From: Ignavibacteriales bacterium CG_4_9_14_3_um_filter_34_10
GTDB lineage: Bacteria; Bacteroidota; Ignavibacteria; Ignavibacteriales; Melioribacteraceae
DNA: 35,736 bases
Direction of reading: 5' to 3'
Assembly: GCA_002790395.1 (NCBI GenBank)
Contig: PFVB01000194.1
Span: 1-35,736 of the forward strand
This document shows positions 2,848-8,854 of the stretch, one piece after another. Position 1 is the stretch's first letter. Each line of letters starts with the position of its first letter. Both the position numbers and the translations under genes were made by a program. Below the pieces are notes generated by a model. The model had not been told where the DNA came from, did not search any database, and saw nothing but the letters and a program-made list of their open reading frames with translations.

Positions 2848-5019
2848 ATGTCATTATCACTGAATGATTCAACACAATATTTAAAATCAGTTAGTCCCCA
2901 AAAAGCAAGCTTGCTTAGTTCGGTAGGAATTAATTCCGTACAAGATTTGCTTTATTACTTCCCTTTCAAATATCTCGACAGAAGAAAGATTGTCAAATCA
3001 GATCAATTAAATCAATATTTATCAAAAGGCTTCGATGGCGAAGTGACTTTAATTGCATGTGTTGATTTCAAAGAAAGCTACTATTTTGGAAAGAAGCGTA
3101 TGATGAAAGTTGTAATGAAAGATGACAAAGGTTTTTTTGATTTAGTGTGGTTTAGAGGAATTGAGTATTTTCAGCAGAAATTTATTGAGGGAGAATTCTA
3201 TGCTATTTCGGGCAAACCGGTTTTAACCAAATATAATCACATCCAAATCGTTCATCCTGATTTTGATAAGCTCGACAATTCGGAAGCACAGGATTATTTA
3301 CACACAGGCAGAATCATCCCATTTTATAGGATTCCCGAAAAGTTACGCAAAAACAAATTTGGTGACCTTAGCTTAAGAAAACTAATATTTCAAGTAGTTG
3401 AAAAATATTCAAATCTTGTTGAAGAAAGATTGCCGACTTCAATTATTAAACGATTCAATATTCTTGATATTAATTCAGCGATTAAGAACCTCCATTTTCC
3501 AAGTAGCAATGAAACTTTGGAAAAAGCATTGTACAGAATGAAGTTTGAAGAATTGTTTTTTTTCGAATTAATGATGGCAATCAGAAAACATAAAATTAAA
3601 TATTTACTCAAAGGAAATTCATTTCAGGTTCATCCAAGGATAATTAATAAGCTACTTTCAAAATTTTCTTTTGAATTAACTCAATCACAGCTTGAAGTAC
3701 TAAGTGAAATTCGAAAAGATTTAGAAAGCAGCCAACCGATGAACAGACTATTACAAGGTGATGTTGGTAGCGGTAAAACTGTTGTTGCTTTAATTTGCTT
3801 GTTAATCGTTTCAAATAATAACATGAAATCAGTGCTTTTAGTACCTACTGAAATTCTTGCACGACAACATTTTCAAACCATCACAAACTATTTGAAAGAT
3901 TTTAATATAGAAATCATACTGATAATTGGTGGAATGCGCAAGAAAGAAAAAGATAATGTTTTTAATAAAATCAGCAATTCTAAAAATTGTATTGTAATTG
4001 GAACTCATGCATTATTTGAAGAAAATGTAAGAATAGATAATCTTGGATTAGTTGTAATTGATGAACAACATAAATTTGGTGTGCTGCAAAGATCAAAAGT
4101 TATCAGTAAAGGAAAATCCCCCGATGTTTTAATTATGACTGCTACACCAATTCCTCGGACACTTTCACTAACTGCATTTGGTGATTTAGATTTATCAATC
4201 ATTAAAAAAGTGCCCTCAAACAGACAACAAGTAAAAACATTTTTGCGGAATGAAAAAGCTCTTGATAAAATTTATTCGTTTATAAAATCTCGAGTTGACA
4301 ATGGCGAACAGGCATTTATTGTTTATCCTGCAATTGAAGAAAATGAAAACTCGGAATTGAAATCAGCAGAAAAATATTTTGTTGAATTATCACAATCTTA
4401 TTTTAAAGATTACAAGTTGGCACTTTTGCATGGTAAAATGACAACAGAAAAGAAAGATGAAGTTATGAATAATTTCAAGAATAAAACATTTAACATTCTA
4501 ATTTCTACAACTGTTATCGAAGTTGGTATTGATATACCGAATGCATCAGTAATATTAATAAACAACGCCGAAAGATTTGGATTGTCACAACTTCATCAAA
4601 TGCGGGGAAGAGTAGGAAGAGGCGAAGCACAATCATATTGTATTTTAGTAACAAAACAGAGAATAGAAAAAAGAACTCCTGTTGACTTGGAGTTTAATTT
4701 TTTATCATCGCAACAAATTGAACAAAACAAAACACTGATTCGATTAAATTCGATTGAAAAACATTCTGATGGATTTAAACTTGCTGAAATTGATTTAAAA
4801 CTACGAGGGCCGGGAGAAATACTTGGACTAAAACAATCGGGGATTCCAGAATTTATTTTTAGCGACTTAACGAAGGATCTTGAAATACTAGAAATTGCAA
4901 GAAGAGTAGCTTTTGAAATAATTGATAATGATCCACGATTATTGAACCCGCAAAATATTATTCTCAAAAAAATACTTGATGTTAATAATTGGGGAAAAGT
5001 TCCTTACTTCAGAGTTTGA
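2848..5019 (+). CDS. recG: ATP-dependent DNA helicase RecG
   Basis: RecG is a double-strand DNA translocase that remodels stalled replication forks and branched recombination intermediates. The 723-residue protein has an N-terminal wedge/OB-fold region (roughly residues 60-140) followed by two superfamily 2 helicase lobes. Visible motifs are Walker A GDVGSGKT (304-311, K310), DEQH (405-408), TATPIPRT (431-438) and the C-terminal QMRGRVGRGEAQSYC block, characteristic of RecG. It is at the long end of the usual family size. ATG 2848 lies 12 bp after gpsA. No convincing terminator follows; the next 108 bp contain a putative promoter for the downstream ligase unit. Confidence 0.96.
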   Translation: MSLSLNDSTQYLKSVSPQKASLLSSVGINSVQDLLYYFPFKYLDRRKIVKSDQLNQYLSKGFDGEVTLIACVDFKESYYFGKKRMMKVVMKDDKGFFDLVWFRGIEYFQQKFIEGEFYAISGKPVLTKYNHIQIVHPDFDKLDNSEAQDYLHTGRIIPFYRIPEKLRKNKFGDLSLRKLIFQVVEKYSNLVEERLPTSIIKRFNILDINSAIKNLHFPSSNETLEKALYRMKFEELFFFELMMAIRKHKIKYLLKGNSFQVHPRIINKLLSKFSFELTQSQLEVLSEIRKDLESSQPMNRLLQGDVGSGKTVVALICLLIVSNNNMKSVLLVPTEILARQHFQTITNYLKDFNIEIILIIGGMRKKEKDNVFNKISNSKNCIVIGTHALFEENVRIDNLGLVVIDEQHKFGVLQRSKVISKGKSPDVLIMTATPIPRTLSLTAFGDLDLSIIKKVPSNRQQVKTFLRNEKALDKIYSFIKSRVDNGEQAFIVYPAIEENENSELKSAEKYFVELSQSYFKDYKLALLHGKMTTEKKDEVMNNFKNKTFNILISTTVIEVGIDIPNASVILINNAERFGLSQLHQMRGRVGRGEAQSYCILVTKQRIEKRTPVDLEFNFLSSQQIEQNKTLIRLNSIEKHSDGFKLAEIDLKLRGPGEILGLKQSGIPEFIFSDLTKDLEILEIARRVAFEIIDNDPRLLNPQNIILKKILDVNNWGKVPYFRV

Positions 5020-5074: not shown

Positions 5075-5102
5075 TTGCAAATGAAATTTAAATAATTATA
5101 TT
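5075..5102 (+). promoter_or_regulatory. Putative sigma-70-type promoter for the ATP-grasp/GNAT/KamA unit
   Basis: TTGCAA at 5075-5080 and TATATT at 5097-5102 are separated by 16 bp in the recG to ligase gap. A transcript from here would start near 5109 and place the GGAG at 5118 a few bases downstream, with a very short leader. The region is extremely AT-rich, so chance matches are likely, and the promoter consensus of this organism is unknown. Confidence 0.35.
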
Positions 5103-5117
5103 TCAGTAAAATTTTTT

Positions 5118-5129
5118 GGAGTTTTTATA
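5118..5129 (+). promoter_or_regulatory. Shine-Dalgarno (GGAG) plus ATA that probably starts the first ATP-grasp gene
   Basis: GGAG at 5118-5121 is followed after five bases by ATA at 5127-5129. The downstream frame has no ATG, GTG or TTG until 5325, yet the codons between encode a plausible N-terminal domain. This pairing decides the start of the following gene. A sequencing error changing ATG to ATA is a serious alternative. Confidence 0.5.
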
Positions 5130-6203
5130 AAAACATTTTTACCAAATAAAAAATTAAGAGTAGCTCTTACATATAACTTAAAACCATCTGAAAATTCTTC
5201 CTTTTTCTCTAATAATTATCCTCAGTTTGCAGGTGATTTTGATAGGGGTGAAGATTATTATGCCGAGTGGGATGAATGGGAAACTATTAATGCTGTAAAA
5301 AATGCTTTAGAAAAATTTCACGAAGTGATTTTGATTGAAGCTGATATAAATGCTTACAAAAAATTTCTGGAGGAAAAACCGGACATTGTTTTTAATATTG
5401 CCGAAGGCAGTGTAGGATTAAGCCGCGAAGCTCAAATTCCATCGATACTTGATTTCTTAAACATTCCGTATACTGCAAGCGACCCTTTGACTCTTTCAAT
5501 TTGTTTAAATAAAGCAAGGACAAAAGAAATTCTTTCTTATTACAAAATCCCAACAGCCCGATTTTCATTGGTGTATTCAACGAAAGAATTAATTGAATCA
5601 AACCTTGAGTTTCCAATTATTATTAAGCCTATTGCAGAAGGCTCTAGTAAGGGAGTTTTTGATTCTTCTCTTATTTATTCAGCAACGCAAGTTAATGGTT
5701 TTATTGATAAGTACATTAATGAGTATCGACAACCATTGATCGCTGAAGAGTTTCTACCAGGACGGGAATTTACAGTCGCATTAATGGGAAATGGAAATGA
5801 GTTGGAGGTTTTACCAATTGTCGAAATTAATTTTGCGGCTTTGCCAAAAGATATAAACCCAATATATTCCTATGAAGCAAAATGGATTTTTGACAGCCCT
5901 GAACATCAGTTGGACATGTATTTATGCCCTCCGGATATAGATTCAGACTTAGAAAGCAGAATCAAAAAAACATGCGTTGATACATTCAATGCATTAAATT
6001 GTAAGGATTGGAGTAGAATAGATATTAGGCTTGATAAGAATAATATTCCTAATGTCATTGAAGTAAATCCGTTACCTGGAATTCTGCCTGACCCTAAAAA
6101 TAATTCATGCTATCCAAAGTCAGCAAGAGTTGCAGGATTGAATTACGATGATATGATTAATAATGTTTTGCACTTTGCTCTCAAGCGATATGGTATGTCA
6201 TGA
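5127..6203 (+). CDS. ATP-grasp ligase resembling D-alanine-D-alanine ligase (first copy), probable ATA start
   Basis: The frame encodes about 358 residues if it begins at ATA 5127. The segment upstream of the first canonical codon (GTG 5325) reads RVALTYNLKP and then EDYYAEWDEWETINAVKNAL, which looks like the N-terminal domain of a ligase, so GTG 5325 would truncate the fold. In this numbering ATP-grasp features are EGSSKG (171-176), YEAKW (249-253), RID (297-299) and the metal-binding EVN (312-314). These match D-Ala-D-Ala ligase, which joins amino acids through an acyl-phosphate. However, the catalytic Tyr after YEAK is Trp, and the loop after EVN reads PLPGILPD instead of the usual TSPGMTSHS type, so the substrate is probably not D-Ala-D-Ala. 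The stop overlaps the next gene by 4 bp (ATGA). A peptide or amino-acid ligase is the safest description. Confidence 0.8.
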   Translation: MKTFLPNKKLRVALTYNLKPSENSSFFSNNYPQFAGDFDRGEDYYAEWDEWETINAVKNALEKFHEVILIEADINAYKKFLEEKPDIVFNIAEGSVGLSREAQIPSILDFLNIPYTASDPLTLSICLNKARTKEILSYYKIPTARFSLVYSTKELIESNLEFPIIIKPIAEGSSKGVFDSSLIYSATQVNGFIDKYINEYRQPLIAEEFLPGREFTVALMGNGNELEVLPIVEINFAALPKDINPIYSYEAKWIFDSPEHQLDMYLCPPDIDSDLESRIKKTCVDTFNALNCKDWSRIDIRLDKNNIPNVIEVNPLPGILPDPKNNSCYPKSARVAGLNYDDMINNVLHFALKRYGMS

Positions 6204-7234
6204 TTAATAATTCAAGAATATTAATTTGTTATAACGAGCCATTTAGTTTTTATGAAAATTACTTGGGCAAGGAAAATACAGATAATGCAAAAATTGATTT
6301 GTCAGAAACTGAATTCAAAAATAATTTAGAAATCATTTCTGCTTTGTTATCAAATCATTTTAGCAGCGTTGAAACTTTTGGATTTACTTCCGACATCAAT
6401 CGTGCAATCAATAAAATAGAATTATATTCTCCCGATGTCATTTTTAATTTCGTTGAATCAATTGAAGGCAATTCAAAGTATGAAATTTATGCAACCGGGT
6501 TGTTTGATCTTTTCGGGATTAAATATACTGGCAATAATCCATTATGCTTGGCTAATTGTCTATTCAAAGAAAGAACTAAACAGCTTTTAAAATTCAAGAA
6601 TATCGACACTCCTGATTATTTAGTTATTACAAAAAGGACAAAACTTATTGAAACAGAATTTAAGTTAAATTTTCCGGCAATACTAAAACTTGCAAGCGAA
6701 GATGCAAGCATTGGTATTTCAGAAAATTCTGTTGTAAATAATTTTTATGAATTAAAAAAACAAGTGAATTATCTCCGAAGAAATTTTGGTGCTGATATTA
6801 TCGCAGAAGAATTCATTAAAGGAAGAGAATTAAACATAGCTGTTTTAGCTGATAAATTACTTCCAATTTCGGAAATCAGTTTTTCCGGATTGCCTGAAGA
6901 ATTTCCTGCAATAGTTACTTATGAAGCAAAATGGTCACCTGATAGTATTTATTTTAAGTATAGTAATCCGATATGTCCGGCTGAGCTTGAGCCCGAAATC
7001 CAAGCAGAGATTTACAGAGTTGCATTTAATGCATATACAACATTGGGATGTAGAGATTACGCAAGAGTTGATATTCGTTTATCAGAAAAAAATATCCCAT
7101 ATGTAATTGAAGTTAATCCTAATCCTGATATTTCACCTGATGCAGGTTTTGTTCGTGCAGCCAATGCTGCAGGAATTAGCTATGAAAATCTACTGTTAAA
7201 AATTTCAGAATGTGCATTTAACAGAAATGATTAG
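6200..7234 (+). CDS. ATP-grasp ligase resembling D-alanine-D-alanine ligase (second copy)
   Basis: The 344-residue protein is a diverged paralogue of the preceding gene, sharing the FNF.E block (82-86), YTGNNPL, CLFKERTK (120-127), YEAKW (241-245), RVD (289-291) and EVNPNPD (304-310). ATP-grasp enzymes activate a carboxylate as acyl-phosphate and attack it with an amine. Two changes separate it from true D-Ala-D-Ala ligase: the serine-rich EGSS loop reads EDAS (167-170, Ala at the Ser150-equivalent of E. coli DdlB), and the catalytic Tyr after YEAK is Trp. The C-terminal loop reads SPDAGFVRAANAAG. It overlaps the upstream ligase by 4 bp and the GNAT gene by 8 bp, implying translational coupling. 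Substrate unknown; two consecutive ligations or a heteromeric enzyme are both possible. Confidence 0.85.
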   Translation: MINNSRILICYNEPFSFYENYLGKENTDNAKIDLSETEFKNNLEIISALLSNHFSSVETFGFTSDINRAINKIELYSPDVIFNFVESIEGNSKYEIYATGLFDLFGIKYTGNNPLCLANCLFKERTKQLLKFKNIDTPDYLVITKRTKLIETEFKLNFPAILKLASEDASIGISENSVVNNFYELKKQVNYLRRNFGADIIAEEFIKGRELNIAVLADKLLPISEISFSGLPEEFPAIVTYEAKWSPDSIYFKYSNPICPAELEPEIQAEIYRVAFNAYTTLGCRDYARVDIRLSEKNIPYVIEVNPNPDISPDAGFVRAANAAGISYENLLLKISECAFNRND

Positions 7235-7697
7235 AGAAATCAACAATAACGACAGAGAGCAACTGCTTAAATTAATTGAAGCAGTCGATGAATTTAATCA
7301 GGAAGAAAAAAAAGTTGCCATTGAATTAATCGATGATGCACTTTCAAATTCCGGAAGTACATATAAAATATTTGTTTACGAAAACTCTGGACTAATTGAA
7401 GGATATTATTGTATTGGTAAAAGAGCTTTAACAGGTGGAGTTCATGATCTTTATTGGATCGCTGTAAAACGGGATTGCCAGTCGAAAGGGATTGGCAAAC
7501 AACTAATTGATCATGCAGAAGACTATGTTGAAAGTAATAATGGAAACTGGTTATTAATTGAAACTTCGTCTAAAGACAATTATACAAAAACACGAAATTT
7601 TTATATTAGGAATTTTTATTCTATCGTCGCGGAGATAAAAGATTTTTATAGTGAAGGCGACAACTTAATTATCTTTGGTAAATATCTAAAAAGTTAG
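7227..7697 (+). CDS. GNAT family N-acetyltransferase
   Basis: The product of 156 residues is a single GNAT domain. GNAT enzymes move an acyl group from acyl-CoA to an amine. The acetyl-CoA pyrophosphate loop is visible as QSKGIGK, preceded by a beta strand HDLYWIAVKRD and followed by the helix QLIDHAEDYV; the later strand WLLIETSS and helix KTRNFYIRNFY also fit the fold. I prefer ATG 7227, which overlaps the ligase stop by 8 bp; an in-frame GTG at 7212 would add five residues. It sits between the ATP-grasp pair and a KamA enzyme. A GNAT partner of a lysine 2,3-aminomutase recalls AblB, the beta-lysine acetyltransferase, but AblB is clearly longer, so function cannot be transferred. Confidence 0.85.
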   Translation: MIREINNNDREQLLKLIEAVDEFNQEEKKVAIELIDDALSNSGSTYKIFVYENSGLIEGYYCIGKRALTGGVHDLYWIAVKRDCQSKGIGKQLIDHAEDYVESNNGNWLLIETSSKDNYTKTRNFYIRNFYSIVAEIKDFYSEGDNLIIFGKYLKS

Positions 7698-7708
7698 AGG
7701 AAATATAT

Positions 7709-8854
7709 ATGGAATTATGGCAACAAATGATTAGAGACAGTGTGCATTCTGTCGATCAATTGGTTGAAAAATTTAATCTTGATAGAAGTGTTGCAGAAAA
7801 CCTTGACCAATTTTTTCAAGCAAGAATTAATCCTTATTATTTAAGCTTAATTCGTTACCCTGGCGACCCAATTTGGAAGCAATGCGTACCCGATAAATTA
7901 GAACTTGAAGATATTGATGGATTTGAAGACCCACTCGCAGAAGATCAAATGAGTCCTGTTCCCAATATTACTCACAGATATCCTGACAGATGCTTATTCC
8001 TTGTAACAAGTCAATGTGGAATGTACTGCCGATTTTGCACAAGGAAAAGAAAAGTTGGTGACTCAGAAAAAATTTCTATGAAACAACTGGAATCCGCTTT
8101 TCAGTACATTGAACAACATACTGAAATTAGAGATGTAATTCTTTCAGGAGGAGACCCGTTAATGCTTACGGATTATTTGTTAGAAAGAATTTTGAAAAGA
8201 CTGCGTGCAATCACACATGTAGAAATAATTCGTATTGGAACAAAAATGCCTTGTGTTCTTCCACACAGAATTACACCAAAGCTATGTGACACAATTAAAA
8301 AATATCATCCAATTTATATAAACACTCACTTCAATCATCCTTGGGAAATTACTGAAGAGAGTATGCGTGCATGTGGAATGCTTGTAGATGCCGGTTGCCC
8401 GGTTAATAATCAATCTGTATTAATGAAAGGTGTGAACGATGATCCTGCTGTGATGAAAGAATTATTACATAAGCTTTTAAAAATGCGTGTCCGACCGTAT
8501 TATTTATTCATGGCTGATGAGACGAAGGGCGCCGGACATTTCAGAACTTCGCTTGAAAAAGGATTGGAGATTTTGGATAATTTGCGGGGACATACTAGCG
8601 GACTTGCAATTCCTCATTTTGTAATTGATGTTCCGGGAGGTGGTGGAAAAATCCCAATGTTACCAAAATATATTTTACATCGCGATGAATCAAAAATAAT
8701 TCTCAGAAATTATAAGAATGAGCATTTTATTTTTCATGAACCGCATTTATCTGAGACTAATGAAAATAAGAAATCCAATCAACCATCGATAACCAAGTTG
8801 AATAATATGGAAGTAAAAATGAATCTTGAAGAAATTATATTGGACAATAACTAA
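7709..8854 (+). CDS. KamA-family radical SAM aminomutase (lysine 2,3-aminomutase-like)
   Basis: The 381-residue protein belongs to the PLP- and SAM-dependent aminomutases, which shift an alpha-amino group to the beta carbon. The iron-sulphur motif CGMYCRFC supplies C103, C107 and C110. The PLP lysine is K314 in DVPGGGGK. D270 (in FMADETKG) and D307 (in IDVPGG) are spaced 37 residues apart, exactly as D293 and D330 of clostridial lysine 2,3-aminomutase, which bind the lysine side-chain amine; this favours lysine over glutamate as substrate. An AGAGG-type ribosome site (7695-7700) overlaps the GNAT stop. A C-terminal tail after about residue 345 is polar and not obviously conserved. EpmB, which makes beta-lysine for EF-P, is a related alternative, but no EpmA lies nearby. 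It ends overlapping the opposite-strand thioredoxin-like gene by 4 bp. Confidence 0.9.
   Translation: MELWQQMIRDSVHSVDQLVEKFNLDRSVAENLDQFFQARINPYYLSLIRYPGDPIWKQCVPDKLELEDIDGFEDPLAEDQMSPVPNITHRYPDRCLFLVTSQCGMYCRFCTRKRKVGDSEKISMKQLESAFQYIEQHTEIRDVILSGGDPLMLTDYLLERILKRLRAITHVEIIRIGTKMPCVLPHRITPKLCDTIKKYHPIYINTHFNHPWEITEESMRACGMLVDAGCPVNNQSVLMKGVNDDPAVMKELLHKLLKMRVRPYYLFMADETKGAGHFRTSLEKGLEILDNLRGHTSGLAIPHFVIDVPGGGGKIPMLPKYILHRDESKIILRNYKNEHFIFHEPHLSETNENKKSNQPSITKLNNMEVKMNLEEIILDNN

Follow-up and report, generated by a model that had tools for sequence, protein, structure and literature searches.

The first of two adjacent ATP-grasp ligase genes in the window, the whole 35,736-nt stretch of DNA analysed here, very probably begins translation at an ATA codon (5127-5129), judging from a comparison of orthologous loci in which the same site is almost always occupied by ATT, ATC or ATA. 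The comparison bears directly on the position of the start, its conservation, the coding signal that follows it and the overlaps between downstream genes. The explanation that, taken as a whole, we consider likely is that the ATA is a true start, that it is kept weak by selection and that it throttles a coupled operon. For IF3-dependent throttling as the function of the weak start, which is a separate matter, we lean only slightly in favour.

The locus

The frame is open from 5085, as the initial annotation had it; an in-frame stop ends at 5084, and the frame closes with the TGA at 6201-6203. It was also correct that no ATG, GTG or TTG lies in frame upstream of GTG 5325, where the list of open reading frames begins the gene, and that DNA coding for a ligase N-terminus is present upstream of that codon; we place its beginning at about 5151. 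The proposed spacing of a GGAG followed by five nucleotides and then the ATA is likewise borne out by the sequence. Codons are numbered throughout from the first K of KLRVALTYN as 0 (window position 5151), which places ATA 5127 at -8 and TTA 5154 at +1. The features at this end of the operon are as follows.

5075-5102, forward strand: TTGCAA-N16-TATATT, a candidate promoter-like site preceding the operon (consensus scan, 9/12)
5118-5121, forward strand: Shine-Dalgarno (SD) core GGAG, 5 nt ahead of the ATA (sequence; anti-SD duplex of -5.9 kcal/mol at the given spacing)
5127-5129, forward strand: ATA, putative start codon of the first ATP-grasp gene (aligned codon ATT, ATC or ATA in 72 of 76 orthologues allowing ±1 codon, in 60 exactly there)
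5127-6203, forward strand: first ATP-grasp ligase gene, 358 codons plus stop (Pfam Dala_Dala_lig_C, 110 bits; AlphaFold2 model; best PDB matches D-Ala-D-Ala ligases)
5130-5153, forward strand: predicted N-terminal extension, codons -7 to 0, from the AUA start to the ancestral start position (third-position excess of differences; in-frame stops in 0 of 59 rows)
5154-5156, forward strand: TTA (Leu), at the position of the ATG or TTG start of outgroup orthologues (outgroup alignment, codon +1)

The protein read from ATA 5127 starts IKTFLPNKKLRVALTYNLKP and runs to 358 codons. Of 72 clade orthologues, 68 carry a TATATT[TGA] motif in the 70 nt that precede the start, mostly at -32 to -40, against a mononucleotide-shuffle rate of 0.21, and the leader of the gene is likely to be short. 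A structured leader or riboswitch was considered and rejected, two 81-nt folds of the leader being no stabler than those of shuffled sequences (z of 0.19 and 0.15).

Orthologues and their sampling

Orthologues were sought in 58 related genomes, which gave about 40 close ones, and in 294 genomes of the class Ignavibacteria, of which 188 had a match at an E-value of 1e-80 or better; the loci taken from this larger search are a chosen sample of its matches. Named genome contigs were scanned as well and yielded 58 loci. From 174 loci, 22 duplicates and five lacking a usable anchor or upstream DNA (L031, L096, L101, L109 and L110) were removed to leave 147; the locus of the isolate Stygiobacter electus (L061) is a duplicate of L044. 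The structure alignment comprised the window and 54 orthologues, taken from 95 full-length candidates. In a FastTree phylogeny of the 147 proteins the window's order, comprising three families, groups with the sister family f13 in a clade of 77 rows (local support 92). We chose to set aside one member, L106, which lies on a long branch inside the clade and has ATG at +1, and our counts rest on the remaining 76; since these are related, the counts across them are not independent. The contig of L106 is titled Candidatus Aenigmarchaeota archaeon and carries a bacterial ligase gene with an ATG start, a locus that is possibly mis-binned or transferred.

Conservation of the probable start codon

An in-frame AUU, AUC or AUA codon (AUH) stands behind an SD-like stretch, defined as anti-SD pairing of -2.5 kcal/mol or better 3-9 nt ahead of the codon, in 72 of the 76 distinct orthologues (ATT in 57, ATC in eight, ATA in seven). 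It is found at codon -8 in 60, at -7 in six and at -9 in six. ATG, GTG and TTG are all absent from codons -11 to +1 in 29 of the 76, the window's gene among them, and ATG and GTG are absent from that interval in 70. At the AUH site itself ATG is found in none of the 76, and the codon profile is free of it everywhere from -12 to -4. An in-frame stop at codons -13 to -9 in 22 orthologues means that no start further upstream is usable there. Counted from the AUH codon, the proteins in the rows printed are 352-367 residues long.

Among the three options initially offered for the window's ATA, a true start is the best fit to this pattern. That the ATA is really an ATG, altered by a mistake in sequencing or assembly, is hardly credible: the window's genome is admittedly a draft of 236 contigs, but independent assemblies in quantity, including four one-contig genomes (G008, G035, G046 and G048) and the isolate S. 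electus, carry ATT, ATC or ATA at the site and in no case ATG. A private decay of the start is unlikely because the site, the SD spacing and the protein length are conserved across the order.

Ribosomes might instead reach the gene through coupling to recG, or through frameshifting or re-initiation after an AUG further upstream. There is indeed a short frame, ATG AAA TTT AAA TAA (MKFK-stop), at 5081-5095 in another frame, but its ATG is positioned before the promoter-like TATATT box, and about 60 nt separate recG from it. Moreover, when every frame is read from 14 nt before the start to codon +2, an ATG turns up in only 14 of 72 orthologues, lying after the AUH in 11 of these and just before it in three (L080, L057 and L052). 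We regard entry of this kind as very improbable.

The four clade members that depart from AUH start with GTG at -4 (L009) or ATG at -3 (L023, L024 and L152); the weak start can therefore be dispensed with. In L024 and L152 an out-of-frame GGA-ATTTTT-ATT relic lies upstream of the ATG, and this looks like a lineage whose AUU start was lost through an indel. In L017 the SD score favours a TTG at -5 over the AUH.

These same departures can be cited for a reading in which the AUH start is real and unregulated, being good enough for a rarely needed enzyme with no selection towards AUG: a few lineages did move to ATG or GTG and retained the gene. Against it, interchanges among ATT, ATC and ATA number at least nine by parsimony on the tree and none leads to ATG at the site, whereas 129 of 135 neighbouring genes begin with ATG, and a well-spaced SD has been retained. 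The want of ATG among nine changes is modest evidence alone, having a chance of about 0.03 by our own arithmetic if the three third-base changes are equally likely. Altogether we find an unregulated start unlikely, though it is the most serious competitor to a start held weak by selection.

Coding character of the predicted N-terminal extension

Translation from the AUH codon predicts that the eight codons which follow it are coding. In 23 disjoint pairs of close relatives, differences at the first, second and third positions of codons -7 to 0 number 18, 20 and 37 (p 0.003). The same pairs give 38, 28 and 24, with no third-position excess, in codons -16 to -9, and 10, 8 and 37 in the protein core. 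In-frame stops are absent from codons -7 to 0 in all 59 rows, whereas 25 of the 59 have them in codons -16 to -9. Overall, therefore, the DNA 3' of the AUH site appears to evolve as coding sequence and that 5' of it does not. The signal is not uniform: among the 28 rows that lack any NTG at +1 the differences in disjoint pairs (6, 9 and 11) fall short of significance, and those in all close pairs (79, 169 and 95) are contrary to the coding expectation.

The principal competitor for the AUH site as a place to begin is the Leu codon at +1 (TTG in relatives, TTA in the window), or else GTG 5325. The former draws some plausibility from the TTG at +1 in 39 of the 76 clade orthologues and from outgroups that begin there with ATG or TTG. 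However, 36 of the 76 have no NTG at +1 (TTA, TTT, TTC or CTN instead), and even in the 31 rows that do have TTG there the extension looks coding (differences of 16, 10 and 29; p 0.002) and the median SD energy is -8.2 at the AUH compared with 0 at +1. SD energy, coding signal and the 36 rows together rule against TTG at +1 as the sole start. A start at GTG 5325 would cost the protein its predicted first strand (residues 11-16) and the helix at 51-61 in the AlphaFold2 model (pLDDT 89). Nor did we find any orthologue that starts at the 5325 position without the upstream segment: all readable N-termini encode a VALTYN-type strand upstream of it. A downstream start of either sort is thus very improbable, and translation from ATA 5127 is again the preferred reading.

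The coding signal also stands out when the ligase is set among other genes. In a 400-kb sample of the one-contig relative G008, where a dicodon model called 350 genes, the ligase orthologue ranked second for coding signal ahead of the first canonical start. With a weaker single-codon model no gene in the same 400 kb, the ligase orthologue included, rose above threshold.

Outgroups and the direction of change

Outside the clade, families f7, f10, f18 and f19 and the contigs with Deltaproteobacteria titles and a readable anchor have ATG at +1 or thereabouts. Families f8 and f15 start mostly with TTG at +1, and f5 with TTG at -3. Since the ATG or TTG start of these outgroups lies nine codons downstream of the AUH, the start has apparently moved. 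Within the clade the codon at +1 is TTG in 39, TTA in 18, TTT in eight, CTG in four, CTT in three, CTA in two and TTC and ATG in one each. The simplest reading of these data is that the start shifted upstream from the ATG or TTG to the AUH codon and that the old start then decayed to Leu and Phe codons. An evolutionary path may thus be visible, from an ATG or TTG start to an upstream AUH start to loss of the old one.

Other families show other codons in a comparable place. In f20 and f24 (L171-L176) an ACG, and in f14 (L091, L182 and L183) a CTG, stands behind an SD, either preceding canonical codons or next to them, and some of these loci also carry a TTG or ATG further downstream. We note them as leads only.

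Neighbouring genes and predicted products

The ligase gene lies behind recG and is followed by three genes on the same strand.

2848-5019, forward strand: recG, upstream (70 of 76 clade loci have it on the same strand; three of the six exceptions have no listed neighbour)
6200-7234, forward strand: second ATP-grasp ligase gene (its ATG overlaps the first gene's TGA by 4 nt)
7227-7697, forward strand: GNAT acetyltransferase gene (8-nt overlap with the second ligase gene; Pfam Acetyltransf_7, the longer frame 7212-7694 having been scanned)
7709-8854, forward strand: KamA-family (lysine 2,3-aminomutase-like) radical SAM gene (TIGR00238, 304 bits, cut-off 199.2)

The two Ddl-like ligases, GNAT and KamA (5127-8854) form a set behind recG that is conserved across the order. 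The 4-nt overlap of the two ligase genes recurs in 57 of the 65 orthologous loci measured, and the second ligase gene overlaps the GNAT gene in 60 of 61. The three neighbours counted favour canonical starts: RecG has ATG in 11 of 11, the second ligase in 62 of 63 (one TTG) and GNAT in 56 of 61 (five GTG or TTG), leaving GTG or TTG in six of the 135.

The first ligase belongs to the D-alanine--D-alanine ligase (ATP-grasp) superfamily by its match to Pfam Dala_Dala_lig_C (110 bits, cut-off 24), and the best PDB matches of its model are solved Ddl enzymes (TM 0.7-0.8). Its best score against the NCBIfam Ddl subfamily and equivalog models is 183.5 bits, under the cut-off of 243. By these sequence matches it is a relative of Ddl, and we do not call it a true Ddl. 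The KamA-family protein likewise scores 459.7 bits against lys_2_3_AblA, under the cut-off of 525.4. As a guess from gene content, the ligases, KamA and GNAT may make an acetylated β-amino-acid peptide. A search of open-licence papers for the gene cluster gave no match.

infC and start codon usage in the same genomes

Of 38 genomes, 37 yielded a gene for IF3. Thirty infC loci of the same order were fetched and the motif was located in 23, whose rows were read by eye; 22 of these readable loci have ATT or ATC behind an SD, the start of L133 not being clear. Such starts must therefore work in these bacteria. ATC is preferred in infC, and ATT in the ligase gene.

Weak starts nevertheless seem to be rare there, tolerated though they appear to be by the ribosomes. 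A general laxity in start selection was rejected as an explanation, since only three genes stood out among the top rows of the G008 scan in combining a coding signal with a non-canonical codon behind an SD: the ligase gene, a truncated-looking glycosyltransferase-like frame and an EutN-like CTG gene. The infC gene itself ranked only 190th because it has a GTG a few codons in, and short cases of this type are therefore missed by the scan.

The last of the three (L214, G008:C1 about 225266-225550, minus strand) has a CTG directly behind a strong SD (-11.6) and no ATG, GTG or TTG for 18 codons; it likely starts at the CTG, and is presumably an EutN/CcmL-like microcompartment shell gene. The glycosyltransferase-like frame (L220, G008:C1:345091-345987), its identity guessed by eye, shows an extended coding stretch ahead of its first canonical start and looks truncated or broken.

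A possible mechanism

These observations can be accommodated in a simple scheme. The GGAG at 5118 would position the ribosome at ATA 5127, where initiator tRNA would place formyl-Met at AUA. Because IF3 would discriminate against AUU, AUC and AUA, initiation should be slow and dependent on IF3 activity. Selection would hold the codon weak, allowing swaps among these three and never to AUG. As the next two genes overlap in series, the weak first start could then set the output of a coupled ligase-ligase-acetyltransferase unit. The IF3 dependence, the low output and the translational coupling are what we infer.

More tentatively, a weak-start throttle on one biosynthetic operon could extend across the class Ignavibacteria and have survived changes of codon, with AUU, AUC or AUA in the order and one sister family and, behind an SD in other families, ACG (L171-L176) or CUG (L091, L182 and L183), the level of IF3 setting ligase-ligase-acetyltransferase output. 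If this class-wide proposal, which we rate as doubtful, were true, IF3 would be linked to metabolism beyond the translation machinery.

The material for a test is at hand in the natural AUU, AUC and AUA variants, the few ATG and GTG replacements and the infC control, which together would address whether IF3 sets metabolic output in bacteria. On the practical side, gene finders limited to ATG, GTG and TTG would truncate the ligase or misplace its start.

Comparison with known systems

The gene for IF3, infC, starts with AUU, AUC or AUA and is autoregulated through IF3. The ligase gene resembles it in having one of these codons behind an SD, conserved in distant species, and infC is present in the same genomes. 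It differs in that the product is a metabolic ligase and not a translation factor, and there would therefore be no feedback loop as in infC. The initial suggestion that ATA starts are seen mainly in autoregulated genes was half right: infC fits it, but sigR and ccpN, discussed below, are not autoregulated through IF3.

To our knowledge, non-canonical starts kept by selection are confined to few bacterial genes, mostly those of regulators or translation factors; the conserved weak start described here sits on an enzyme operon, order-wide. An enzyme gene with an AUU start is pcnB of Escherichia coli, where, as Binns and Masters are said to have found in 2002, the codon limits enzyme output. It is a single enterobacterial case, and we know of no operon coupling there.

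In Streptomyces, according to PMC5472188, sigR starts with GTC or GTT and its repression by IF3 has been shown by experiment. A strong SD and the non-canonical codon are kept in 32 of 34 species, the other two having switched to GTT, which is also weak, and the operon is partially coupled to the next gene (PMC5472188). The strong SD and conserved weak codon are shared with the ligase gene; the differences are that sigR concerns one genus and a regulator, whereas the ligase is an enzyme for which repression by IF3 is our proposal. In Staphylococcus (S. aureus), ccpN (AUA) and cvfC1 (AUU) yielded, according to PMC13009471, about 10% of the AUG output when reporters were assayed in poor medium. 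There too non-canonical starts are conserved with an extended SD, and cvfC1 is first in its operon; those cases belong to staphylococci, while the ligase start spans an order and one sister family. Listeria rnhC (ATC), among other fixed non-canonical starts in PMC13068326, is likewise an enzyme gene with a fixed weak start, but within one species in that analysis. PMC8710568, checked for Flavobacterium infC, contained no infC passage, and no paper on the ligase gene was found in the open-licence literature.

Two marks of the IF3-discriminated class to which infC, sigR and ccpN belong are seen here: a canonical start is lacking at the true N-terminus in 29 of 76 orthologues, the window's included, and in 72 of 76 a codon of the weak class follows a well-spaced SD at codons -9 to -7. 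On this comparative evidence the ligase start appears to join the infC, sigR and ccpN kind as a new member of unusually broad conservation.
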